Shown one piece after another: positions 1,359 to 46,356 of a stretch of 64,000 nt of DNA; position 1 is the first letter of the stretch; each line of letters opens with the position of its first letter. The notes under the pieces were generated by a model, which had not been told where the DNA came from, did no database searches, and worked only from the letters and a program-made list of their open reading frames with translations. Origin of the DNA: Beroe forskalii. Taxonomy: Eukaryota > Ctenophora > Nuda > Beroida > Beroidae. The position numbers were made by a program, and so were the translations under genes. The stretch lies in contig WFMF01000084.1 of assembly GCA_011033025.1 (NCBI GenBank), positions 124,001 through 188,000 of the forward strand. Reading direction: 5' to 3'.

Positions 1359-4329
1359 TTACCGTATGGTTATCAATGATCCATAGTAGCGGTGTCGTAC
1401 AATCACAGTGCACTATGCTTGATAAGAACTTCATTAAAAGCAAAGAGACTAGTGTATTAGTGTAATGGAGAAAGCACATGGGTATCAAATCTTTAAATCT
1501 GAAATTCAATCTAAGCAAAACCTCCTCATTATTTGAACTTACCAGCAAAGGAGAAATATCGTCTGAAATACGGATCCAGAAGACATGGAAGTGACGAGTG
1601 GCAAGGATATGATCCTTCTTTATCGTTCACACTTTCTACTTCTCAACTTATTTACCTACTCAAATTTGATTGTATATTGTACAAGTCTTGTGGGTAGTAT
1701 TTCTTGTGTATTGTACTGTTCGTATGTTGTAGGAAGCACACCATATTGAACGAGCACGATATCACAAGAAATTACGAAGTGAAACTCTGTAGTTAGAACA
1801 GGGCATGGGAATTGGGACTACGAGCCCCCTAGCGTTTGAAAGGCCCCCTCTAGAAAAATCTTAGAGGGGCCATAGCCCTACTTTAGATTTTCTCAAAAAT
1901 TTGGACATCAAATGGAAGTTAAAGTTGAGATTAAGTTCAGTTAGTCAGGAAATTTCTTGAATTTCACCTTTTAGAGTCAAATCAATCATTAAAACATGGT
2001 TTTCGTTGTATATTTATGCAAAATAGAAAAAATTAGGGCTATGAAAAATGAAAATTTGCTTATGTGAAAACCTTGGCCCCCCTTAGTTTTCAACCCCCTA
2101 CAAAAAATCTAGGGGGAGAGGCCTTTGACCCCACTAACTCGGAAAAGTGTGTAATGGCATGGAGCAGCAATTCCAAGCCATTAACCCTGCTTCTTAGTCA
2201 TGAAAAGCTGAAGAATATTTTGCAATTCCAACTATCAATCGGACTGGAAGAAAAAAACCGCATATCAGAATCTTAAGTCTTGTCGTCGTGAGAAAATCGA
2301 AAGAAAACATAAGAAAATCATTAGAAACCATGGGAAATCTAATGGTAGCAGTTAACCATCACTACTGACACACGGTGCAAGATCGCTACATAACTACTCA
2401 GTTACCCATTTCAAGCGAACATACTTCCTGTAAAGGTGATTCTAATTCCTAAGTGTTGTGAGAAAATGGTGTTAGGAGTGAAGGGTGTATACTGCATTGT
2501 TGCATATGCTCAATGCTCATATTCAAGAATATACCCGATGCAATGCACATATTTTGAGATCCACTAACAGCTGTACACAACAGCTCCCACTGGATATTTA
2601 TCGCGATTTGGAGGTTGAACTTCAAGATGTGGTTTGTATCTCAAGATCTGGTTTGTAAAATAAGAAAATAAAAATTTAAAAAAAACAAAAACAAAAAACT
2701 CGGAGTTGTGAAAAACGCTGATATAACTGGTATTAGAGTAGTAACCACTAACCAGAAACATGCGGCGAGAAAATATGTAACATGAGAAAGGAAGACGAAC
2801 TAACCAAGTGTGGGATTCAGTACGAAAAGAAGTGAAATTTTATACCTGCCGTCGCCGAGCAGCACATTGAAAGATAAAGCCAATTTACACATCAAGACAA
2901 CCGAAAATTGGAACCGTAAAACTAAATTGGCATATTGTTTCAATTCTTTGGGTGGTTTTATCGTTTGATAAAACCATCGCTTATCATCACAACAAACGAT
3001 AAACCAACCAGAAAAATTGAACGATAAAAGCTGAATTTTACAGGAAAACTGTTATACCTGTATACCTGGACAACACATATTGAGATATTGAGAGAGCAGC
3101 ACAGCATTTTACTGTGACTGAAATCATTGTGACCTACTGAATCTAGTACTTGTGATTGTTATGTAATGAGTGTAAGTATTGTGTCCTAGAGTACCTTGCA
3201 GTTGTCGAAAATTAAAAGTTGTACGGATGGTTGGATGAGTACAACTTAACGCGATATGACAACTTGAAGTGCATTATAATCAGACTGCAAATCATAATCT
3301 TACTGAATCTCAACAAATGAGACCTGTAAAGCAAAGCACATAATCATAAGCAGTGTAGGCTATCCTCTTGCGGCCCCCGGGCCCAACCTCTCTTATATAT
3401 ATAAGCAGTGTAGGTACAAATTACCAACGAAAGGATACAAGCGTAACAGCATATATACACATAGTATAAAATAGCTTCATTATGAATTTAAAAGAAGCGC
3501 TCAGTGTATGCGATTATAACTGAGGCATTGAACAGTGATATGTACAACTATACATGCCATACATGATAGGTACATTGTACAATACGCAATATACATACAT
3601 GCGGTTACTCATTTTTAAGTTCGAGAGACTAATTTAGTTGAGAATTGCACAATGTACACGATATTATATTATACCTGCAAAATAGAAAGAAAAACTTTCA
3701 AAACAAACAGAAAATATCATTCCGCTATACCTATCCACAGTAGCCCTGGCAACAGGGACCTCCCAGCGGGAGGTCCCGTCTTAGGGACTCTGTTTGGATC
3801 TCTTGTAGATCCATCCCCCGTTTAGTACCGTCAACAACGGTACATACAAAGCGAAAATTGGGAAAATTGTAATATGAGCATAAAACAAACTGCATATTTT
3901 CCTTACAATTACTATACAAAAACGAATGTGTAGTATGTTAGCGTGTGTTGCCATGGCAACCCGGCACAATATGCTGCATATGAAGTTAAATCATTCAATT
4001 GAAGGAATGGCTTCGCAACTTATAATAACGGAAAACGAAAGCAAAAGTAGGGCAGCCAACTATAGCATAATCACGCAGGACAAATGACAAAATGCACGGC
4101 AATGGGAAAAAAGCCACCAAGTACAAGACATGGTGGCAGTTAAATTGATAGCTTGATGTTATATTTGGACCAATTCCAAACATAGGTTCCAAACATATGT
4201 TCGACTCTGAGCATATAAAATGTTACACTTGAAAGTGCACAGAGTACAAGAAATTTGATGAGTTTTCAATATGTAGTAAGCGTTGATACTCCAACAGTTG
4301 ATTTGACTATGTATGGAATAATTGCCCAG
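1359..4329. other. no gene seen; small hairpins
   Basis: No exon with good splice sites or a recognisable protein was found. Two hairpins rich in C/G runs occur: ggccccctcta pairs with tagaggggcc at about 1842-1871, and cccccta pairs with taggggg at about 2094-2117. At 3350-3415 a 14-bp direct repeat (ataagcagtgtagg) flanks about 40 bp including a cggcccccgggcccaa block. At 3747-3770 gggacctcc-cagc-gggaggtccc forms a short hairpin. Confidence 0.5.
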
Positions 4330-4862
4330 GTTAAGTGGCAAGTGCCATACATGAATGTAGAACAGTGTGTACATCTAGAGTGTATAGTGGCAAGTGCTAT
4401 ACATGAATGTAGAATGGTGTGTACAACTAGAGTGTATAGTGGCTAGTGCTAAACATGAATGGAGAGTGGTGTGTACATCTAATGTATAGTGCAATATACA
4501 TGAATGTAGAACAGTGTGTACATCTAGAGTGTATAGTGGCAAGTGCTATACATGAATGTAGAATGAACACCATGTGCAACTAGAGTGTATAGTGGCTTAC
4601 CAGTGCTAAACATGAATGGAGGTGGTGTGTACATCCAATACCAGTGCTATACAATATACAGCTGAATGTAACCCATGCACATTTCGTGCATAGTGGCAAG
4701 AACTATACATTAGGGTGTAGAATAATTAAGTGTAGGTACATCAAGTGTATAGTGGCAAATGCTATACAAGGTTGTAGAATTGAGCGTATACTGTATAGTT
4801 TATACCTAGTCTATAGTGGCAAGTGCTATACAAAATACATGAATGTAGAATTGAGTGTATAA
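4330..4862. repeat. degenerate ~55-bp tandem repeat
   Basis: About nine diverged copies share the words tagtggcaagtgctatacatgaa, tgtagaacagtgtgta and catctagagtgta in that order. Copy length varies by small indels. Single words from the array (tgtatagtgcaactc) recur at 5345-5435. Short open frames across the array follow the repeat and are not evidence of a gene. Confidence 0.75.
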
Positions 4863-7800
4863 CCCGTGTTTTGACTAAACAGATGATAAAAAGAACACCA
4901 GGTGCAACATCATCCTGGGTTTACCACAGGAATCAGTAAATATGGGACAAGTTCAGGACAAAACCATGAAACTCAGGTGACAGCTGTCAGGTAACCATAC
5001 ACCACCACAGTAGAAAGCTGTGTACCATCACAATATATAAGGGCTTAGTAACCTGTATTGTGTGAAAATCAAATCTACATTGAAATGCATTATCGGAAAA
5101 TAACGAACTGAATCCTTATAAGAGCTAGCATCTATCCCAGCCAAGAAAAGAATAAGTGAAGAAATTACACAGATTGAAGTTTATCAAATGGAGGCGCAAT
5201 CAGAGGGATGCATTTGAGCATTTGGAGCAATATTTATGAGAAAAAGTTGACGGTAAGCGTCAAGAATCAGTAGAACACACAGAATACATGACACAACTAC
5301 AAACTAAATCGGGCATAGTAAGGCTTGAGCACTGACAATATGACATAATCGTGTACAATGAAATGTATAGTGCAACTCAAGGCTAGAGCATAATATGAAA
5401 ATCGTGTACTATGTAATGTATAGTGCAACTCGATGATGTAGAAAGGACTGAGCATCAGCAGGGAGGTAAAGTATTACGCAGCAAAGTATACACAATTAAA
5501 TGCTTCACAATGACGAAATGTAACTTAGTGCAGGCACATATGCATTGTACACTTACTACTGAAGTCTAGGAAATCAGTACGATGTACACTGTACATTTTA
5601 CATGGTTAACGGAGCACAAAATCTCGTACAAATGCAGTCCCTAAGATACACATTCATAACTATACACATTCAGTATACAACTATACACATTCCGCCTGTA
5701 TACACGGTTAAGTTATACACTCAACTAATGTTATAACAACAACGCATTACATTCAGCAGAGAAACGAAATGTAGCTCATCAATGTACACAACTACACAGT
5801 ACATGGTACACTGCGGTGTTCAAGTAGCGTGACACACAACGCGCCGTGTTCTCGACCAATGAGAGCGCAGGATTTTACCGCGCTCAGTGTTCTCGACCAA
5901 TCAGAGCGCTGGATTTTACCGCGCTCAGCGCTCGGTCCAGGTTCCTGCTCGAATAGGAGACAGAAGTGATCCGTCTAAATGTCGTGTACAATGTATTGCA
6001 ATACATATTGTACCTTGTTTGGAAATATCCTGGTGCAGACTGTAGCAGACTGCAGCTATTCGTAATTCGTACATGCCTATCATACATACCACTTTTTCAT
6101 ATTCTTTGGAATGTGTTTGGAGTGTTATTTTTTCAATAGTTTTTAAAACTGTCAATCATCCTCATTCTATAATTAGGATGGATGTATCTGGGGAGGGAAA
6201 ACACACTTGTTGAGTAATGAAGCTGATCGAAAATCCTGCTTTAATGGTCATTTCTGATTAGTGATTCGATTACCAAAATTTTGACACTTGTCTATCCTCT
6301 TTCGCTTTTCAGTTCATCTTGACTAATTCCGTTGTCATGATCTTGGTGTTTCTTTTAAGTTTGATTTATTATTAGATTGAAATATGTATCATTTCATAAT
6401 CTCATACTGCGGCGAATTACTAAATTATCAATTGTCTAGTTTCCATCCCGAATTAGCGAGACTTTCCGGCTTTTATGATATTCCTCCATAATTAATGAAG
6501 CATTAGTCGTTTTAATGTGAGAACTACCAATTTAGCAACAGGTAGTGATAGCCAATTAATGATCCGTTTAAGACAGATTTGCCTGTGTTCTGGTTTCACT
6601 TCCACGTAACTTCCTATAAAAACTTGCAAGCTAAAACTTGAGTGTAAGGATCCTTCTAGACTGTTGGGAGGTTAAAATGACGCCATTACTACCGTTTTAA
6701 GGGGATAATCGATGACCTCACGTCGCTTATTTTTGTCGATTTTGACGTAAAGATTTATCAATCGATCTCTGTAAATCTGTCAATTACATGTTGCCAAGCT
6801 ACATCTTCTGACAAATAACTATTAACACAGCTAGTATGTGTTCTCATTAAAATACACTTACAACCAATCAGCACCTGTACCGCGACAGATCAAAGCCAAT
6901 TAAATCCATTTAACCGATCACGTGACCCTTGCTGCACCCAGTTAATAGATTTACACGTGAGACAAACATGAAAAGTATACGGACTGCGCACTAAATATGG
7001 GCCCTGCCACGCCATCAACACACCATTTTAAAGCCTGATAATGACGTTACTCTCAACCGCCTCCTCTTCCAAGGTTACATATAGCCGTGGATGAATAAGG
7101 CAACTCGTAGTGGTTAATATAGTATAGCAAGATCGCTGACGTTTTAGTTGAGATTGCCGAGTTCACTAGTAGGTTAATATATGTTAATTCTAAATTATTT
7201 ATTTGTAATAGTGTCTAGACTGCGGTTGTACTTAGCTACTTTCAGACGTTTAATGCTACGATATAATCCTTATACTGATCAAAATCAATTTCAGTTGTGA
7301 ATTATGGATCTTATGGTTTATTGGTTTCTTTTAATGCTCATTGAGTATTGCGTAAGGTTGTAATTTACCAGCCGTCGACTCCTCTTCTCGAAGTTTTGAC
7401 CTTCCAGGGAAACATCGGTAATATGATTCCTGATTTAGTGATTTAATGTGACGTAAGTTCTAGAAATCAGGTTTTTACGAACTTTACGACGAAACAAGTC
7501 ATAATATACAAAGCAATGTTATGAAAACAAAAGGAGGAGAGAACGCCAAATACTATGCGTAGGCTCAAGAAATCTACACAATTGTACATTATCCTCCCCC
7601 ACAGTGCGATGATCATGCGTTGTTCAATGTCATTATCACACCACTTCGTGATGTAATGATGACGTAATAGTCACATGATCACAAGTACCAATTAGGACTC
7701 ATATAATGAATCATACACACAATGAAGTAACGGTTCCCCGCATAGAATTACCCCGGTAAACATTCAAATTGTAACCAGTGAAACAATTAAGAAATACACA

Positions 7801-8100
7801 GAACTATAATGGAAACCAAAAAAACAAATCCTAATTGAAATCCTAATTGTGACTTACTGGTTATAATTTGAACAAATCCTAATTGTAAAACTTCCCCGAT
7901 CCTAAAACATTCTAACAAGTTGAACAGTACATATAAGGTGGACATACTTTGGTAAACTCTACCTTTGAACCAACGCTCAACTGCGTAACGTAAGACTGTG
8001 AGAAAGTCACTTGGAATTACAAATTACATATTAATACGTTCTCACTCTGAGAGGTGTGCAAATGCCCTTCCCAAGTCCCCAATTATACACGCTAAGCATA
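4863..8100. other. no gene seen
   Basis: AT-rich sequence without supportable exons. It holds the 41-bp tandem duplication described at 5846-5928 and scattered TGACGTCA-like words (for example near 7040 and 7660) that resemble the dispersed element at 8101-8164. Confidence 0.45.
5846..5928. repeat. 41-bp tandem duplication
   Basis: Two adjacent copies of a unit beginning gtgttctcgaccaat and ending accgcgctca. They differ at only a few positions, so the duplication is fairly recent. Confidence 0.8.
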
Positions 8101-8164
8101 AATAGGCGGTCGTTATGACGTCATTGACATTTCGCGCGCTGCCAAATTGTTGAAACCGCCTATT
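8101..8164. mobile_element. 64-bp MITE-like element, AATAGGCGGT termini
   Basis: It is bounded by the inverted repeat aataggcggt ... accgcctatt and carries tgacgtcattgacat just inside the left end. Related copies or fragments lie at 11733-11801, 49323-49391 (both with tgacgtcat and a terminal aaccgcct), 9340-9362 and in the loop of the big palindrome near 37108-37152. It has no coding capacity. Confidence 0.6.
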
Positions 8165-11100
8165 TTTTAGACAGGCATTATCAGCACTGGAAGTGAGATG
8201 ACGTTATTTTTCATAGACTGATACAGCTATAAAGTATATTTAAGTCAAACTAATTCATCCAAGCAAAAGGAAATTAATGATGGATTTTCATTTCTAATAC
8301 AATAACCATCAGCCCCACGTGAAAATGAAGATGGTGCGGTAGCCTTCCGTTGCAGAGAGTTCTGCTGATGATGGATGCAGTAATCTTATGTTTAATTTCA
8401 TTCTCACCATATTTTAGTAAAATATTAAGACCTACATAGCGCGTTAATTGGTCAAAAAATCAATTTTTGATCTCAATAGTAGGGTTTTAATCCTAAGGAC
8501 GGTTAAAAGCGTAAAAAGTCGGTTATAACTGTTGAAAATGGAATCTTTTCCTGATCGTAGGCCTCAAAATTCTAAATTTTAATTGGTAACGCATTTAATT
8601 TGAATTTTGAATACTTACAAAAATTTCGAACAGATACCAAAAAAGATGCTTATTCCAAAAGAAAGGCTGAAGTCATGGCTAAACTTGTAAAGAGGTTTAT
8701 TTGTTCAGTTGTTCACACTCATTTGTAGTTCTGTAATTTTCGAGGCAGTTGGGGCAATATTTCTACTTATAAATGTGAGTTTGAGAGTATTTATGTTATG
8801 TAGATCTCGAAATATGCCATGACATACCTACAAACAACCTCAGGCGTAGGTCCTTGCCAACCCAGTTTACATAACTCCTGCCATGTTAATAATAACCGCT
8901 ATAGCTGAGCTCTATAACTACCCAGTATATATTATGTTCTCCAAGAGCTCACTTCAAAATGAGAGTGAAATCGTTTAAATAGGATCCTTATATTGGTTTA
9001 TATAATAGGACGTTTAGTGTGTACATATATATACAGTCGCCGCGAGTGTTTTAAATGCGAAGTAAAAATGCAATTATATAGTTTTCGAGCAATTATAACT
9101 GTCATTTTATATAGTTCAGTTAAGTACAAAATGACTTCTTTTCCGAAGGATTTATTCGACTTTTTAAAAGTTCGTTAGGATTCCTCGCATAACTTGAGAG
9201 CGATTTTCGTGTTTTCTGCAGATTCATATATTTCCTTCCATGAGAAAGACTGTTGGGATGCGCGCGCGCGCAAACACTAGTAACTGAAAGTGATGCCCTT
9301 ATCACGATCTAAAGTGGGAGTGTTCTTGACCGTGTCATAAACGGTTAACCGCCTATTTTTCCAGCTCCGCGAGCATCTCAAAGGAGACTTTTCAGTGAAA
9401 CGAGTGGTATTTATCCCACTCGCTGGTATATAATGTACCAATGAGCTATATAGAATTTCTAAGAAGACTGGTGTTTAACTACACATGTAAGAAATCGTTT
9501 TTATCACCCCGCGCCAACCCCATGTCTAATGCCAACGCCAGGTTTAATGAACACATTATATATTTAGTATATATATAGTTACTCCAAATGCAGCTCTCTT
9601 GACAACATACGGTAAGTTAGTGACAGGTGAACGAGCGTTGAGTGTGTTGATATGATTCATCGTATGATTACTATTGTGTAAGTTTATTGTTTGGCGACTC
9701 GTTAGTTTTTGTGTTTTGATGTGAATGTGATTCAACGTATAATTACGATTGTTTATAATTGGCGATTCTTAGGTTTTTGAACAGAGAAATACACGATTAG
9801 ACTAAAGCCTTTTAGTCTAATTTTTCAATGATTCGTACTAAAATTCCTCTACGCATGATTAATAAACGCATCTAAGTAAGGATGCGTTTAACGCATCCTT
9901 ACTTAAATATTTATTGGGCAGTTTTAGGGTCAGTAATTTTATATAAGTGCGGTTACAATGAGTACCCATTATATTGTCTCCTAACATTGAAACATTCAAA
10001 GTTCATGGAAGAGAACAAAAGGGGCGTAGCTCGTATAATAGGTTAATAGGTTGTATGCATCCCAATATTCTTCTCCACAACGCTAACCTTACACAATAAA
10101 TTCTAATTCGTCTGAATAGATGGTATTGTACTCCATGAAGATGGTTTAATGACGTACGGTCTGTCTAAACCCTGTCTAAATGTTTTAAGTGCCATCACAC
10201 GCCTTTGAAGTCTGAACCGTACGAATATTATAAAGTTAATTTGTGAACTCCATCTTAAGTTAAAAATATCATCACAATTAATTATTATATCACGCGCACC
10301 GTTTCACCAACTTCCCATGCGACACTTGAAGTACATGAATATGATAATAATATTTCCTTGTGTTTGACTATATATTCGTCCAGAAAGTACCTTAATACCT
10401 CCCACTTGGGGTACTACACGCTATGATATATCCCGCCTAATCATTCCCCCAGTCTAATATTAGGGCTCTGAGGTTTGTATAGTTGATTATGTGGGCACAC
10501 CAGCTGTAGCTATTTAAGTATTCACGCTCAAGCGTGTGATTAGGAGCTATTTGTCATACCCTTCTCTTGTGGAGCCTGGTTATTTGGCAGATGAAGTCAT
10601 TCGAACAGTATTTTGAGTGACATTTTGATAGCTTTTTTCAATGTTTAATGTGACACAGTCATTAAATGAAAGCGGTATTTTTCTTTTTTTGCACGCTGAG
10701 AGTTTTATTTTCCTTCTTTCCTGGCGCGTTTGTGTTGATCTATTCTGGAGAAGTCGACTTGAAGTACTAAATAGATAAATAAACCGTTTTACCTCGGCCT
10801 TATTAAAGTTAGTTAGGTGTATGAAGTCTGGGTTTGTGTTGAGAAGCAAACTGCACAACTTGCGTAAACCAACATTTGACACAATTGTTGGTTTCGACTT
10901 TCGAGTGCCGATCGACTTTGATTTTGTCGCGGTGCTACTCGACATAATAGAACAATCGTTTAGGGAACTCATGATGGGTTTATGGTGATTATAGGTTTAG
11001 GTCCTAAACTTTAGGATAATTATATAGGTTCAGGGTACGCTTGAGTTGCAACACTACAACAGCTTTAACTACATCGCCGTATAGTACCTACTTATATTCA

Positions 11101-31771: not shown

Positions 31772-33147
31772 CAACCGGGAGACTCAACAAACATGGATCA
31801 AATAGGAGTGTTTCATTCTCAACCTACCGTACTAGCGATATGATTACGACTTCATCTCATCTTTCAGTGACTGACTTTGATGACGACTGTACGGATCACG
31901 ATGACGGATATTTAACTCGAATATTTGCCCGAATATCCCAGAATTTTCACTCCAATTTTTACTGGATGTTCTTTCCCGGATATTCGAGCAAAAATCGACC
32001 AGAAATTCGCATATTATATGGAACAATACAAGGGTGTTATGGCCGGTAATGAACTATGTCAGAGGTGTTTATTATAAATGGAGAGGGCGGAAAATCTGAA
32101 CAAGAAATGTAACTGGAAGAAGTTTAGGTTAACAATTTTTAAATTTATATCTGCTTTCTCGGATCGGAGGAGATAATGATGATAATCTGATGTGTTAATA
32201 AATTTTTGAACTTAGACGACCTTTATTATTCATGTTGATAAATTTCATAACATACCAATCCAAGATTATGTATTAGAATGTCTTTAGAGTTCAAAATTCA
32301 CTCACAATGTGTTTTACTTGCAACTATGGTATTATTTGATCATATATTTATCCCGTTATTAAACTTAAAATAACGAGGTATGAAATGTGTTATTATTTGA
32401 ATTTCAATTCTTTTATTCCTTGATATGCTATGTAAATTTTATTTTAATTAATTGTAAAGTGATTTTAATAATAACATTATGCTTGATTTTCTATTATATC
32501 TCCTGTGTAATTTTGCTTATGATGAATTTTCACGTAATTGCACTTTACTATAAAAACTTGTTTTTCTGAACCTAAAAATCGCAAAAATGTCATAACGTTT
32601 TTATAGTGACCGTATAAAATCAGCTGAGCCTCGTATGATAGCAGGATGAGATTGTTTTTTCAGGTAACTGTGGTTAATTGATGCTGTAAATTACTACTAT
32701 CAGTATCGCCTGACCAATGAAGGAAAGTAAAAATGAAATCTCTCATCAACTCACAACGGACCAATGCACTTGCAGGTCCTAAGATGCTGTAAAATGTTAT
32801 CACAAGCAAAACTCAAAAGCAAAAGCTAGGACGATTGTTAAAGTTCTAGAACCTTTATGTGCTGCAATAAACGTGACTTATCACACATTTAATGATAAAA
32901 TTAGCAAGGAATATTCGCAGTGTCATATTTCTATAGTTTATACTTTCCTAGCCTTGTAAATACATCTGTGAACAGCAGTTCTCAATTTGCTGTATTATCT
33001 AATGTTTCTCTTTCAAGTTTTTCAAGTTTCTCTTGGACCCATTTCATAGTACCGAAATCTATTAATGATATTACCTCATCCATCAACTGTAACTTTCTTA
33101 CTTTAAACTCCCAACGTTACAAACCACACATTTCCAGCAATTAGGCC
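31772..33147 (+). other. 3' region of Ig-like gene and spacer before the TenA-like gene
   Basis: The stop at 31769-31771 is followed by about 430 bases to an AATAAA at 32197-32202, a candidate poly(A) signal. The rest is AT-rich with no exon. Just before the TenA-like start, tttccagcaattag precedes gccATG, so a 5'-UTR intron or a trans-splice acceptor may end at 33144. Confidence 0.5.
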
Positions 33148-33864
33148 ATGAGATCTGCACTCCCGCTCATCTTCCTGATAACCCTACTCTGTCCCTCCAC
33201 TCACTGCAACCCACGAAAAGGGCAGTCTTTGGCAGACTACCTGTGGGAACAGACCACTGAGCTCCAGGAACAAGCCCTGAACTCCAACTTCATCCAGGGA
33301 GTGAAGCAAGGCTGCCTGGATCCCACCCAGTTCGGAGCCTTCATGGTCCAGGACAGCGTCTACTGCTACGAAGCGACGGTAACGTGGCAGACAGCTGCTG
33401 ACAGATCACTCAACGCCACGGTGAGGGAATTCCTGAAGTCTACAGCAGACTCCTGGAAAGGGTACTGGGAGTGGTTGTACGAGGCGTGGCATATCAAGAA
33501 CACCGAGGGTATCCACCTGGGCGAGGCTGCAGCTAAGTACATCTCGCATTCTAGAGCTATTGCAGAGAATGCTGCTGATGCTCCGGAGTACACAATCCTA
33601 GCCTTCACGCCGTGTGCTAAGCTGTGGCCCTGGCTGGGACAGCAGATTGGGTCGGGGGAGAAGGATTTCGGGGTCTACACCTCCTGGGTGGAAGAGAATC
33701 TGGACTGCTTTTCTGAGGGTTACAAGGTGTACCAGGACTACGTGCAGTGGGCGTATGATGCTGGTAAGGTGACGGCTGAGAGGGCTCTAGAGATCTTTAC
33801 TGCCAGTATGAGGAGTGAGGTCGCGTTCTTTAACTCGGTGGAGAAATGCAGCGGGGGTCAGTGA
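33148..33864 (+). CDS. secreted TenA/THI-4 family protein (thiaminase II-like)
   Basis: A 238-residue intronless reading frame. Residues 1-20 are a signal peptide (basic start, PLIFLITLL, then a small-residue/Cys end), so the product enters the secretory pathway. The rest matches the TENA/THI-4 heme-oxygenase-like helical fold: SLADYLWEQT near the start, FMVQDSVY (Asp69, Tyr72), FTPC...W (Cys156), a Tyr/Trp-rich last third, and a C-terminal Met-Arg-Ser-Glu (Glu224). By position these match the Asp44, Tyr47, Cys135 and Glu205 used by bacterial TenA to hydrolyse aminopyrimidine or thiamine, so activity is plausible. Residues 89-91 (NAT) form an N-glycosylation sequon. Bacterial TenA is cytosolic and feeds thiamine salvage; a secreted animal form could act on thiamine breakdown products in gut or fluid, but that is inference. 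Neighbouring Ig-like genes are intron-rich, so a single exon suggests retroposition or transfer from microbes. A possible poly(A) signal lies at 34353. Confidence 0.88.
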   Translation: MRSALPLIFLITLLCPSTHCNPRKGQSLADYLWEQTTELQEQALNSNFIQGVKQGCLDPTQFGAFMVQDSVYCYEATVTWQTAADRSLNATVREFLKSTADSWKGYWEWLYEAWHIKNTEGIHLGEAAAKYISHSRAIAENAADAPEYTILAFTPCAKLWPWLGQQIGSGEKDFGVYTSWVEENLDCFSEGYKVYQDYVQWAYDAGKVTAERALEIFTASMRSEVAFFNSVEKCSGGQ

Positions 33865-34775
33865 ACCGGGTTCGGTTTTTCTTGAAAAACGAAGGATTGA
33901 AAGGAAGGGTAAAGATTGGTTTGTTGTTAATGATTGAGACTTTATTTTGCATCAATCAGTGTTTTATTTTCTTTCTTCTCATTATTTTCGAATAATGAGG
34001 CAAATTAAAGTGAAAACTTTCCTTAATATGGTTGAACTCACACAACCCTTCTACTACTAAATGGGGGAATGGGCCAACGAGGGCCCAGGCAGCGCCCAGG
34101 AGAGGGAGCTTCAGGCCGAGGCAAACGCTCCCATGCTCTTGGGCCCCTGGATGGGACGAGAGTCCCGTTCCTCCCTGGTTGCCACTCTGCCAGAGCAGGA
34201 TGGCGTTGCCTACACAACCCTGCAATCAAATTTTTTCAATTAAATCAGAAATCTTCATGGTGCCAAAAATCAAAATACACTGAAAGTTGGAGCTGTCAAT
34301 TTTCAGATTAACTTTTGTTAATTTCCTTGACCTGCTAGACAGATCTGGTGATAATAAAGTTTGTATGGGATATTACAGCGAATGTTTGAAGGAGTGATAC
34401 TTGCTGGTATAGTAAATTATCTAACCGTTATCCCGATTCTTACAGAGCCACAGTGCAGTGTAGATATCCGTGAGACAGCTATTGAAGCTGAAAAAGGACC
34501 AAACAACTTAACGGGGCCAATCATCATCGGTATTGGTACGGCTTTTAATCGTTAAAGCTGTACTGCTGATAATTTTCATTTCAAAACAAAGATTTTTTGA
34601 TGCTCAGCTCAATTATTCGTTTGCCTGTTTATTTTGACATTGCAATGCTGTCCCACTTGCGGCTGCACAGAATAAGTTTTAAATTTTTAAAACTTAGCTT
34701 TCTCTTTCGTCTCTTCAGGCCCAATGTGATTTAAAATTAAGTAGGTTGCTTCTAATTTTCTGGGAAGACACCCCA
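33865..34775. other. 3' flank of TenA-like gene; no further gene
   Basis: AT-rich apart from the GC-rich island described separately. AATAAA at 34353-34358 is a possible poly(A) signal for the TenA-like gene. Confidence 0.45.
34055..34225. other. GC-rich island of unknown nature
   Basis: About 170 bases are strikingly GC-rich against AT-rich flanks. They contain gggcccaggcagcgccc, ctcttgggcccctgg and gacgagagtcccgttcc, able to form local hairpins, and stay open in several frames on both strands. It could be an inserted element, a structured RNA or a foreign fragment; no tRNA, rRNA or known SINE promoter boxes are recognised. Confidence 0.4.
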
Positions 34776-35648: not shown

Positions 35649-35680
<32 letters not shown>

Positions 35681-35695
35681 AAAAGTAAATTTAAG

Positions 35696-35726
<31 letters not shown>

Positions 35727-36590
35727 AAAAAATTTCGAAAAAATTTTGAAAAAAATCGCTCATGGCCGAGGTGGCTAATCTAGAATCTACAGCGCGCGCT
35801 GTATGAAAATTCGTGCGCAACAAAAGTTATGTTAAAGGAGTCTGCGCTCACTGACCCATATCTCAAGATCCACAAATAGTAGAGACATGATCGAGGTCAT
35901 GTTTTGTTCATCTAAGACAGGAGTAGGTAATTGGCTATAAGAGAAGTTCTGATGACGTCATTATGATGTCATTATGACGTCATCAACTTAGCGAAATTTT
36001 CTTGCTTGTTTAGCGAAAATAGGTCATCTTTGTGCGCATTTTTGACCAAGAAGGAATGGAGATAGCTCAGAAATGTTGAAAAATCGTTAGTTGGAAATTT
36101 AAAGAGCTTTCAGAAAATCATACGGATCATTGGGCTATCTCGATTTTTCATCGAGATATACGCGATTTTCTAAGGCACGGTGAAAAATCGATTTTGAAGT
36201 TTTAGAAGAAAACTTAAACGAGTGACATGTCAAAACTTACGACTTATCATGAGCTGAGACCGGCCAAAGTATGTTGGGCTAAGGCGAAATTGTATAGTAG
36301 GCTATGTGGGAAATCGATTTGAGCCAATTTTGGTGCTGTGATGACGTCATCAAAATCGCGTAAAAACACTAAAACAACGTATTTTGCGATAGATTGTTAT
36401 TTTGCGCTACTTTGAACATCTCTTACTCAGAGAGTTTTCATTGTATTATGTTTTACTTCAATACATTGCTTGTAGACCTCGAGATTTAGCTATAAAACGA
36501 GTTCCGTGGTGAACGGCCGAAAAATGTTGCCATGGGAAGCCTCCAAAGATTGACCGCTAAATTATTGAGATTACATCTATGACGAAAATT
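35106..36590. repeat. left terminal inverted repeat of the foldback element
   Basis: It pairs with 41721-43148. The outer ~540 bases are a tandem array of aaaataaaatg / aaaacgaaatg / aaaaccaaagt words; two poly(A) runs follow (about 35650-35679 and 35694-35723); then comes the complex inner segment up to the word ctaaattattgagatta near 36576. Confidence 0.85.
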
Positions 36591-39689: not shown

Positions 39690-40612
39690 TCAAAAAATAC
39701 TGCGCCATTGCGCCCATCATGAGGATGCCCTATAAATGCCCAATGAAGTACTGCGCCATTGCGCCCATCATGAGGATGCCCTATAAATGCCCAATGAAAT
39801 ACTGCGCCATTGCGCCCATCATGAGGATGCCCTATAAATGCCCAATGAAATACTGCGCCATTGCGCTCATCATGAGGATGCCCTATATATATAAATGCCC
39901 AATGAAATACTGCGCCATTGCGCCCATCATGAGGATGCCCTATAAATGCCCAATGAAATACTGCGCCATTGCACCCATCATGAGGATGCCCTATATATAT
40001 AAATTCCCAATGAAATACTGCGCCCTTGCGCCCATCATGAGGATGCCCTATAAATGCCCAATGAAATGCTGCGCCATTGCGCTCATCATGAGGATGCCCT
40101 ATAAATGCCCAATGAAATACTGCGCCATTGCGCCCATCATGAGGATGCCCTATAAATGCCTAATATAGTTAATCAATGAAATACTGCGCCATTGCGCCCA
40201 TCATGAGGATGCCCTATAAATGCCCAATGAAATGCTGCGCCATTGCGCCCATCATGAGGATGCCCTATAAATGCCCAATGAAATACTGCGCCATTGCGCT
40301 CATCATGAGGATGCCCTATATATATAAATGCCCAATGAAATACTGCGCCATTGCGCCCATCATGAGGATGCCCTATAAATGCCCAATGAAATACTGCGCC
40401 ATTGCGCTCATCATGAGGATGCCCTATAAATGCCCAATGAAATGCTGCGCCATTGCGCCCATCATGAGGATGCCCTATAAATGCCCAATGAAATACTGCG
40501 CCATTGCGCTCATCATGAGGATGCCCTATATATATAAATGCCCAATGAAATACTGCGCCATTGCGCCCATCATGAGGATGCCCTATAAATGCCCAATGAA
40601 ATACTGCGCCAT
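39690..40612. repeat. 51-bp satellite, open on both strands
   Basis: About 18 copies of a 51-bp unit reading atgaggatgccctataaatg, cccaatgaaatactgcgcca, ttgcgcccatc. Four or so copies have 6 extra bases (tatata), making 57; both lengths are multiples of three, so a plus frame (repeat MRMPYKCPMKYCAIAPI) and a minus frame stay open. A taatatagttaatcaa insert occurs at about 39680 and again near 40160, showing a higher-order unit of about 480 bp. Copy variants (cgctcatc, aaatgct) alternate. Two long plus-strand frames are separated by the insert. A signal peptide or flanking exon is lacking, so I read it as a satellite. Confidence 0.85.
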
Positions 40613-40829
40613 TCATAGCTGCCAAAATGCCCTGTTTTTGACAGGGCGCCCTGTCCTGCCCTGTTTTTGCCCTGTTTTTGGGCCCTTGCCCTGGGAAGCC
40701 CTTCTTTTGCCCCGCTTTTCGACCAATTTGCCCTGTTTTTTTCTTTGTAAAATATACCCAGCAATTAGATTACCATTTTTGGGTCGCCTCCAAAAAAAAA
40801 GGTCGCCACTTTTATAATTTATATGGGTC

Positions 40830-43776: not shown

Positions 43777-46356
43777 CTAAGCTTCATTTACCACCACCTC
43801 ACAAATGCTAAGCCAGCCCAACTTCGACACCGTGACCACATCCGTAGCCTCCGATCCTCCGCAATCGATCTCGTAGACCAGCGCTCCAGTGTAGGTAATC
43901 TGTCCACATTCATGTTCTCCCGCCCTGACCACAGCTCCGTCTATGTTATTCTGGGCGAAATAATCCAATCGGGGGTAGACGTACACCTTGCCGACCCGAG
44001 TGCTGCTGTCCAGCTCCAACTTCAGCCAGTTATCCCCTTGGTTCGGTCCAGCGAAGTAACATGTCCCGTGGAAGAAGTTAGCGTTGGCGTCTTTGTCCGT
44101 TGCAAGGTCAGGTCCTGCGCCGTACAGCTGGGAGGATGCAGAGACTGTCGCTGATGTAGCTAAGTTCTTCTTTTCAGAGGTTATGGGGTCCAAATAGTCT
44201 TCTTCAGCTGGCACAAAGTCATGATCCACCATAACGTTAACCTCGCAAAGTGTGAGATATTCGTTCAGATTCACAACCTTGACATACCTACCCTTAACTC
44301 CGCCGAGCGGAAACTCGAAGGGGTCGACCTCATTGACAAATTCAAAGCCACCAACGGTTCTGTCGTCCAACAGGAGTGTTGCCATATCGATACGGGCAGC
44401 ACTGTTTAAATTATCATTCCGACCACGTGCTGTGATATGCTGGATATAGTACTCCTGCCCTAAGTCAACTTCCCACCAATTAATGACCTCTTTTTTAGTG
44501 TGGGTGCATGAATAAAACCAGTTATCCACAGCCCGGGGCGCCATCGACACCGAGTTGAAATCGGAGCTTTGTGTGGCAGGACGGAGGTAGGCAACGTCCT
44601 CCACCGCCGGAGTCACAATGAGCATTTCCTCGGCAAAGAGTTCAGAGTTAGCTACCCAGACCTGAACTTCAGCCAGGGATAGGCAATCGTCAAGCAGCTC
44701 AACTCTCACAGACTGGCCATAGACAGCGTCACCAGATACATCCACCTCTATCGGATCTGCTGCTTTGGTGGGCGCCGGAATATCCTGAGCTACAATCTCC
44801 CGCTTTCCAACGATTACCCGGGCTCCTTCGATTCTTTGGTGACAGCAATCTGTTCTGCCAAATAGGGTTATGTGATGTATCTTGTAGACCCTGCCTAAGT
44901 CGACTTTCCACCATTGGAGACCGCTGCACTGTGTGTGAGTTACAGATTTACTACTCATCTTCCCATATGTATCACCGTCGTTGCCTCGACGAGCATCGTA
45001 GTCATTGAGGGTGGAACTTTGAGTTGCTGTTGCTTTCTCGTGCACAACCTTGTTGTTCAATGCAACATTTGTGAAATCGCCAACTGTTTCTCCTGGCCAA
45101 ACAATGGTCTCTGGCACTTCATCAATTTCTGATTTCTTGACCATGACTTGCACCTCACATATGGAAACATACTGGTTAGTCTGCGAGATGGTAATAACCC
45201 TTCCAGCCATCAGCTTTTCATCGCACTTCACTACTTCAGGACCTTTTGTCTTCATGTCAGAAAGTCTGGCACACAAGTTCCCATCAATCCATAACATGGC
45301 ACCAGCCATGTATGCAGAACCACCGCTTGAACTTTGTCCCCAAATTTTGATATGATCGATCTTGTAATCTCGACCAAGGTCCACCTTCCAGTTGTCAGAA
45401 TTTCTGTCGTTAGTATGAGAACAAGACCCGGACGCACCTGCCCATGATTGAACTGTCCATCCGTCCACAGCCTTTGATGCACCAGCGTCCGATCGTGTTG
45501 AAGATTGGGTGGCGGACTTTTTATAGGCTACGTTGTAAAACTCGTCCAGTTCCTGTCCATTGCTCTGGGACAAATCGCTGGTAGGGACCTCAGCGTCCAG
45601 CAAGTCCTTCCTCACCATGACCTCAACCTCACACACAACCAGCTTACTGAGCCACTTCTCAATGCGAACCACTTTGCCGGTCCTCTTGGAGGCATCGCCT
45701 TTACAGTTGAAGGTGTGTCCCTGCTTCCGGTCCTCCTTCATTCCGTCTATCACTTCACAGATCTGTTCCCCGATCATCAGATAGGCTCCATTCAGGACTC
45801 CTTCGTCGTTATCCCACTCATCAGACACCCCGTAAATCACGATGTGGTCGATGTTGTAGACCTTATCCAGAGTGATTTGCCAGTAGTTCCTGTTCCTATC
45901 GTTGGTGTAGGCGCACCCTCTCAGAGCGTACAGGGTGTTGGTATTCCTGTCAATCCCACGTGCAGCTTCTCCACCACTCCTCACGCCAGACTGTGCCACC
46001 TTCACTTCCTCCAACTGCGCTACATTCACAAATTCCGACTCCGCACTTGCCTCACTTTTCTCTCGGAAGCACTCCATCTTACCACTCACCAGGTTCTTGT
46101 TGGTTTTGGGATCACCGTGTTTATCGGTTTTGAGCCAGCACCTGCCCCCTCCGTTGGAGTGGGCTGTGAAGGCTGCACATTGGGGGTGCCGACTGCACGC
46201 CTCCAGACATTCCTCCCGAGTCTTGGGGTCCATGATGAAGTTAACGATGTCTCCGCCTCTCAGGTCTGTTTTCTCAAGGTAGCACTCGTCAGCGTCTGCT
46301 GATACTACAGCTGGGTGCAGCCACAGAGCTGAGGTAACGAGGAGCAACCAAACCAT
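43777..46356 (-). CDS. secreted PAN/Apple plus five F-type-lectin-like domains
   Basis: An intronless 859-residue frame. Residues 1-20 form a signal peptide (WLLLVTSALWL, ending VVSA). Residues 25-97 are a PAN/Apple-like module with Cys at 25, 50, 54, 60, 73 and 96. Five galactose-binding-fold F-type lectin (FTP, F5/8-like) domains follow at about 109-249, 273-408, 427-570, 585-712 and 729-859, each with W-x-(V/I/L)-x-L and a final (C/A)EV-x-V. The fucose motif H-x26-R-x-D-x4-(R/K) is exact only in domain 3: His474, Arg501, Asp503, Cys504-Cys505 and Arg508. Domain 4 keeps His619, Arg646 and Asp648 but lacks the last basic residue; domains 1 and 2 lack the arginine. F-type lectins bind L-fucosylated glycans in innate defence or egg-sperm recognition, so an extracellular glycan-binding role is likely, with domain 3 the probable fucose site. 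The absence of introns over 2.6 kb is unusual next to intron-rich neighbours. Confidence 0.92.
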   Translation of the reverse strand: MVWLLLVTSALWLHPAVVSADADECYLEKTDLRGGDIVNFIMDPKTREECLEACSRHPQCAAFTAHSNGGGRCWLKTDKHGDPKTNKNLVSGKMECFREKSEASAESEFVNVAQLEEVKVAQSGVRSGGEAARGIDRNTNTLYALRGCAYTNDRNRNYWQITLDKVYNIDHIVIYGVSDEWDNDEGVLNGAYLMIGEQICEVIDGMKEDRKQGHTFNCKGDASKRTGKVVRIEKWLSKLVVCEVEVMVRKDLLDAEVPTSDLSQSNGQELDEFYNVAYKKSATQSSTRSDAGASKAVDGWTVQSWAGASGSCSHTNDRNSDNWKVDLGRDYKIDHIKIWGQSSSGGSAYMAGAMLWIDGNLCARLSDMKTKGPEVVKCDEKLMAGRVITISQTNQYVSICEVQVMVKKSEIDEVPETIVWPGETVGDFTNVALNNKVVHEKATATQSSTLNDYDARRGNDGDTYGKMSSKSVTHTQCSGLQWWKVDLGRVYKIHHITLFGRTDCCHQRIEGARVIVGKREIVAQDIPAPTKAADPIEVDVSGDAVYGQSVRVELLDDCLSLAEVQVWVANSELFAEEMLIVTPAVEDVAYLRPATQSSDFNSVSMAPRAVDNWFYSCTHTKKEVINWWEVDLGQEYYIQHITARGRNDNLNSAARIDMATLLLDDRTVGGFEFVNEVDPFEFPLGGVKGRYVKVVNLNEYLTLCEVNVMVDHDFVPAEEDYLDPITSEKKNLATSATVSASSQLYGAGPDLATDKDANANFFHGTCYFAGPNQGDNWLKLELDSSTRVGKVYVYPRLDYFAQNNIDGAVVRAGEHECGQITYTGALVYEIDCGGSEATDVVTVSKLGWLSICEVVVNEA

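Follow-up and report, generated by a model that had tools for sequence, protein, structure and literature searches.

TenA proteins of the classical type serve in pyrimidine salvage (PMC10277260), and their catalytic residues are described for the Bacillus enzyme, in which Cys135 is the nucleophile and the C135A exchange abolishes activity, and in which Y47F, Y112F and E205A impair the enzyme; in Pyrococcus TenA, Trp156 is a residue of the pocket (PMC5623701). A BtTenA-like subclass has been reported from cnidarians, molluscs, echinoderms, lancelets, fish and some bacteria (Stentz et al. 2023, PMC10277260). For BtTenA itself, the BT3146 protein, thiaminase activity was measured in cell-free extract, Cys164 and Glu229 are given as the counterparts of Bacillus Cys135 and Glu205, and the protein is described as being packaged into extracellular vesicles; the member from a brown anemone carries Ser at the Cys position (PMC10277260). 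Among vertebrates, thiaminase I activity was shown, after production in E. coli, for a TenA-like protein of zebrafish that is made as a precursor with a signal sequence; its counterparts from carp and alewife were insoluble, so that their activity could not be assayed, and homologues in many animals were reported in 2023 (PMC9839694). Secreted animal TenA-like proteins are thus a known kind, and the novelty that the original prediction for the present locus had seen in such a protein is superseded by these two publications of 2023 (PMC9839694, PMC10277260). That prediction had itself allowed that ordinary intron-bearing, secreted animal homologues would remove the novelty, and such homologues are by and large already in print (PMC9839694, PMC10277260).

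Against this background we analyzed a 64,000-nucleotide stretch of the Beroe forskalii genome (the window), in which an uninterrupted open reading frame of 238 aa at positions 33148-33864 of the plus strand encodes a TenA-like protein of the BtTenA-like subclass in a single exon, probably with a secreted product. The reading frame is real: an in-frame TAG (33142-33144) stands one codon (GCC) 5' of the ATG, and the stop-free length at the locus is 239 codons, against a maximum of 171 and a mean of 95 for the longest stop-free stretch, over six frames, in each of 500 mononucleotide shuffles of the surrounding 1.1 kb. Its GC3 of 0.69 is the highest among five Beroe frames compared (0.29 to 0.65 for the other four), and the two paralogues described below have values of 0.54 and 0.57. 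A possible acceptor AG at 33136-33137, 5' of the ATG, means that an intron in the 5'-UTR may exist, and the single exon therefore holds for the coding part. The gene lies within a 558 kb contig, and 182 bp 3' of its stop, likely still in the 3' region of the gene, begins a GC-rich, SINE-like dispersed repeat of about 165 bp (34047..34218, no strand assigned), which has at least 39 further copies on other contigs at 79-88% identity (40 of 207 candidates scored). This repeat is not part of the TenA function; it anchors the locus in the host genome, and together with the length of the contig it supports residence of the gene there, in agreement with the original description of a single coding exon in an animal genome.

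The same description had placed the gene beside intron-rich genes, which does not fit its clearest neighbor: the minus-strand gene at 43777-46356 is itself one uninterrupted frame, of 859 aa. Judged by eye, this neighbor begins with a signal-like peptide; it further carries a PAN domain and matches the F5/8 type C (discoidin) domain in four stretches, and its product may be a secreted lectin-like protein. Also within the window, positions 39695-40613 hold a tandem array of about 17 copies of a 51-bp unit, with further periods of 159 and 210 bp and with long open frames on both strands.

Elsewhere in the assembly, the mitochondrial contig (L007, C1134) has 17.5% GC, reads TGA as Trp and carries AGR at seven Arg positions of COX1. 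COX1 occupies positions 1-1524 (PF00115 match) and ND5, named by eye, positions 5971-7455, followed by two long unassigned frames at 7546-8652 and 8929-9870; the former opens with about 50 residues that also occur in the frame at 4311-4694, an internal duplication of part of the sequence. ARAGORN found no tRNA on this contig. The published Beroe forskalii mtDNA is described similarly: its GC averages 17.3%, conserved tRNAs are absent, and ND5 is followed by URF1 and URF2, the coding signal lying near 6,500 (ND5), 7,800 and 9,300 bp; URF2 is given as 669 bp, compared with a stop-to-stop frame of 942 bp here (PMC6991124). Of the 11 glutamate receptor matches in the genome, two have the Mnemiopsis protein ML032222a as their best PDB match, by a narrow margin: 195 against 192 bits in one case, and in the other 112 bits against 102 for the top chain other than ML032222a and 4zdm, the latter being a Pleurobrachia protein.

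Returning to the TenA-like protein, hydropathy predicts a signal peptide at about residues 1-20 (33148..33207, plus strand) with its hydrophobic core at residues 7-15. This core is the only one, at the N-terminus, with a 9-residue Kyte-Doolittle maximum of 3.2 at residue 7, and windows starting past residue 22 reach at most 1.6. Hydropathy and layout suggest a cleavage site near residue 20, which would leave a mature protein (residues 21-238) with a calculated mass of 24.7 kDa, and the hydropathy profile predicts that the protein is probably secreted. Residues 33-231 (33244..33840, plus strand) match the TENA/THI-4/PQQC domain PF03070 with 23.6 bits, narrowly above the cut-off of 22, such that the domain and the signal-like start of the original prediction are borne out. 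The paralogues score 20.3 (L002) and 14.3 (L003) with this model, both under the cut-off, and the only other model reported by the Pfam scan of the window protein was DUF2612, under its own cut-off. Among the NCBIfam models, the thiaminase II equivalog TIGR04306 (salvage_TenA) was matched with 29.3 bits, where the cut-off is 130; the top-ranking model, for a two-domain HMP kinase that includes a TenA part, reached 52.5 of 512. Among proteins of solved structure, the best match was BT3146 of Bacteroides thetaiotaomicron (2a2m; E 1.9e-27).

The active site was compared in an alignment of 37 rows, namely the three Beroe proteins, four bacterial BtTenA-like proteins and 30 ordinary TenA proteins, with BT3146 entered as a 200-residue stretch. 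Five positions are invariant in all 37 rows: Asp69 (plus-strand codon 33352..33354), Tyr131 (33538..33540), Pro155, Trp180 (33685..33687) and Glu224 (33817..33819). Tyr72 (33361..33363) is Tyr or Phe throughout, and position 156 (Cys156, 33613..33615) is Cys in 35 rows, the exceptions being the two Beroe paralogues with Ser. Cys156 aligns with the catalytic nucleophile (BtTenA Cys164, Bacillus Cys135) and Glu224 with the catalytic Glu (BtTenA Glu229, Bacillus Glu205); the two align with the Cys and Glu of all 30 ordinary TenA rows and of BT3146, where their partners are chain residues 176 and 241. These are 65 residues apart, the same spacing as between the published Cys164 and Glu229. Tyr131 presumably corresponds to Bacillus Tyr112, and Trp180 to the pocket residue Trp156 of Pyrococcus TenA. 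Cys73 (33364..33366) is shared by five of the seven BtTenA-like rows, and Leu takes its place in both Beroe paralogues and in all 30 ordinary rows. By alignment, therefore, the active site of the window protein matches that of TenA, and Asp69, Tyr72, Cys156 and Glu224 stand at the catalytic places that had been proposed for them, as found with the comparison to TenA that had been suggested as a check.

A phylogeny had been suggested as well. In our ML tree, whose ordinary TenA rows come from sampled genomes (the matches G386 and G291, for which no loci were at hand, being left out), the three Beroe and four bacterial BtTenA-like proteins form a clade with 100/100 support, on a stem branch of length 2.17 and apart from the 30 ordinary TenA proteins. 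The animal part of the comparison, in the tree as in the alignment, consists of the three Beroe forskalii proteins, which group together with 97/95. Since the tree program flagged long branches, the branching order within the subclass is less certain. Four marker residues, a pattern derived in this analysis and not from print (Y106, Y148, W160 and N184), occur in 7/7 BtTenA-like rows and 0/30 ordinary ones. Collectively, these sequence comparisons make the assignment of the window protein to the BtTenA-like subclass of TenA_C clear.

The four bacterial BtTenA-like relatives are 24-30% identical to the window protein, and such relatives were rare in our bacterial sampling, which is lopsided, with Bacteroidota outside it: TenA matches at E<=0.001 were present in 32 of the 398 Pseudomonadota genomes sampled, and in two of the 32 the match was BtTenA-like (E 8e-110 and 3e-59; the next match had 8e-19), one of these two being G001, the source of the query itself. 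Across 369 genomes of the class to which the second belongs, only that genome matched at E<=1e-25. Searching genome contigs with the four-row alignment recovered two near-identical alphaproteobacterial loci, and the search with the window protein alone recovered no relative. The viral contigs searched held none, and plasmids and phages gave one weak match each (E 7e-3 and 6e-3).

The Beroe forskalii genome itself (216 Mb, 1134 contigs) was searched exon by exon, so that a gene split into short exons could escape, and yielded three TenA matches only, all in uninterrupted frames and on three contigs. In addition to the window gene these are L002 (on C183; frame 1477-2280, 267 aa) and L003 (on C833; frame 1465-2193, 242 aa), with 45 and 46% identity to the window protein, and each of the three genes has one coding exon. 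The window copy has one N-glycosylation sequon and each paralogue three. The C-terminus of L002 forms a hydrophobic tail that, judged from its sequence, resembles a GPI signal; L003 is without this tail, having lost it. The two are 87% identical over 878 columns spanning the gene, with collinear matches in the flanks, some of them repeats, and the collinearity fits a DNA-level duplication better than retroposition.

Between L002 and L003, pN (0.102) exceeds pS (0.058; one-sided binomial p 0.07), and over L002 codons 181-234 the values are 0.213 and 0.073 (p 0.049); because the latter is one of five overlapping stretches and uncorrected, we read these figures as an absence of detectable purifying selection and not as positive selection. 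Aligned codons 121-180 are identical at the DNA level (60 codons) and the ends differ mostly at amino-acid-changing sites, which suggests gene conversion or diversification, and L003, whose 59 kb contig ends close by, may conceivably be a very divergent haplotype. The window copy differs from the two paralogues by pS of 0.75 and 0.74 and pN of 0.37 and 0.38, indicating long-term conservation of the TenA family in this genome. The absence of the Cys from two paralogues means, moreover, that the role of the family in Beroe need not be catalytic throughout. It is conceivable, if rather doubtful, that the family has split into a soluble secreted protein cleaving thiamine and a Cys-less pair, one member probably GPI-anchored, that would bind thiamine or its pyrimidine uncut and thereby capture or sense the vitamin.

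For the window gene, we regard it as probable that the product is a secreted, catalytically competent BtTenA-like TenA that cleaves thiamine extracellularly in Beroe forskalii, and extracellular cleavage of thiamine or of a thiamine relative appears to be the likeliest reading of the sequence. Removal of the signal peptide would release a protein of about 24.7 kDa whose site of action would lie outside the cell, in the gut lumen, mucus or secretory granules. There, the aminopyrimidine of thiamine would be held in the TenA pocket by Asp69, Tyr72, Tyr131, Trp180 and Glu224, and Cys156 would attack the bridging methylene, releasing the thiazole. The pyrimidine would then pass to water, as in thiaminase II, or to an organic nucleophile, as in the zebrafish thiaminase I. 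We infer secretion, activity, the reaction steps, the site of action and any defensive or digestive purpose from sequence features and from the described relatives.

Two other functions deserve consideration. As a salvage enzyme, the protein would hydrolyse amino-pyrimidine breakdown products from which the host rebuilds thiamine, in the manner of bacterial, plant and yeast TenA, with which it has its family and active-site residues in common; however, the TMP-TENI (ThiE) family gave no candidate in the 216 Mb genome, in an exon-by-exon search that could miss a strongly split gene and that was positive in 12 of 14 control genomes, and PF08543 stayed under its cut-off (23.6 of 27 bits). Pieces of thiamine pyrophosphokinase were recovered, the best of them with 38.2 bits (cut-off 30.7), and the combination argues against pyrimidine salvage by the host and for extracellular thiamine cleavage. 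A secreted enzyme would, furthermore, feed microbes and not the host cell, and we judge salvage highly improbable. A derived, non-enzymatic role on the TenA fold, such as vitamin binding or signalling, would accommodate the Ser at the catalytic Cys and the Leu at Cys73 in both paralogues, as well as the GPI-like tail of one of them, but the window copy keeps D69, Y72, Y131, C156, W180 and E224, which makes such a role improbable for it.

The origin of the gene can be weighed similarly. A separate microbial transfer into Beroe or the ctenophore lineage, in which a BtTenA-like gene without introns came in from bacteria independently of other animals, acquired a signal peptide and then underwent duplication, is a possibility that we hold tentatively and consider less probable than not. 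It would account for three uninterrupted copies where the zebrafish genes have three exons (PMC9839694), and it finds some support in the sparseness of BtTenA-like genes in bacteria (the two Pseudomonadota genomes in 398 noted above, one the source of the query) and in other transfers reported for Mnemiopsis, though eight of those nine genes have introns (PMC6005172). Against it stand the 24-30% identity to bacterial relatives and the stem branch of 2.17, which together indicate that any transfer was not recent, and the cnidarian, lancelet, mollusc, echinoderm and fish members already in print (PMC10277260). Neither are uninterrupted genes unusual in this genome, given the 859-aa neighbor and three of the 11 ionotropic glutamate receptor matches (L013, L014 and L020), whose open frames measure 961, 971 and 979 aa, and so a single exon alone does not show transfer. 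The single coding exon could also mark a retrocopy of an intron-bearing animal TenA gene, as the original prediction had raised. The genome search returned no intron-bearing parent, all three matches being uninterrupted (with the reservation on short exons given above), the collinear matches beyond L002 and L003, some of them repeats, suit duplication at the DNA level, and no A-run scored by TRF adjoins the gene, the nearest (35652-35732) being about 1.8 kb past the stop and runs of fewer than about 25 A falling below scoring. With no positive evidence for it, we consider retroposition quite improbable. Bacterial contamination of the assembly, which an intronless gene with bacterial relatives might bring to mind, has next to no probability: the gene sits inside a 558 kb contig beside a repeat with at least 39 further copies, its paralogues are on two other contigs, and its bacterial relatives are no closer than 24-30%. 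On the grounds given above, we rejected contamination, a retrocopy and host vitamin salvage.

The secreted thiaminase proposed here bears on questions beyond the locus. Through thiaminase in prey animals, fish and wildlife become deficient in vitamin B1, and what the enzyme does for its producer, fish included, is described as unknown (PMC9839694). A candidate in Beroe forskalii raises the question of whether thiaminase also enters marine food webs by way of comb jellies. The literature searched gave no ctenophore thiaminase among the papers listed; the available text of PMC9839694 and PMC10277260 does not mention ctenophores when it names animals with such proteins, and the main text of PMC6005172, on transferred Mnemiopsis genes, is without thiaminase or TenA. 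A ctenophore TenA-like member is therefore probably unreported before, and with it a secreted animal thiaminase could conceivably, though this is rather doubtful, date to the first animals.

Compared with the described systems, the Beroe protein resembles the zebrafish type, as far as the published description allows the comparison, in that both are TenA-like, are encoded by an animal, begin with a signal sequence (a predicted one in Beroe) and have the active-site Cys (PMC9839694), and its calculated 24.7 kDa falls within the 24-26 kDa given for the fish proteins (PMC9839694). The N-terminal signal on a TenA domain is present, by prediction, and the three-exon gene is absent, although exon number is not a functional criterion for membership of this type. 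In the fish, the genes consist of three exons and are direct neighbors (PMC9839694), whereas Beroe has three single-exon copies on three contigs; thiaminase activity has been demonstrated for the fish enzyme (PMC9839694), whereas that of the Beroe protein is predicted from sequence. With BtTenA (BT3146, PDB 2a2m/2a2o) it shares 30% identity, the same Cys and Glu, the four marker residues and a clade supported at 100/100; the bacterial BtTenA-like proteins L005, L006 and L025, unlike the Beroe protein, are without a signal peptide by eye. The likeness to the Bacillus subtilis type (TIGR04306) extends to the family and to the Asp, Tyr, Cys, Glu and Trp positions, but the Beroe protein stays far below the equivalog cut-off of that model (29.3 of 130 bits), falls outside the group of 30 ordinary TenA proteins, and has Trp for Tyr at 160 and Asn for Tyr at 184. 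L002 and L003, in turn, resemble the brown-anemone member in their Ser at the Cys position (PMC10277260). Taken together, what appears to be new is a ctenophore member of the subclass, the presence of three single-coding-exon copies in one genome and, apparently, the replacement of the catalytic Cys by Ser in two of the copies, of which one has a GPI-like tail.
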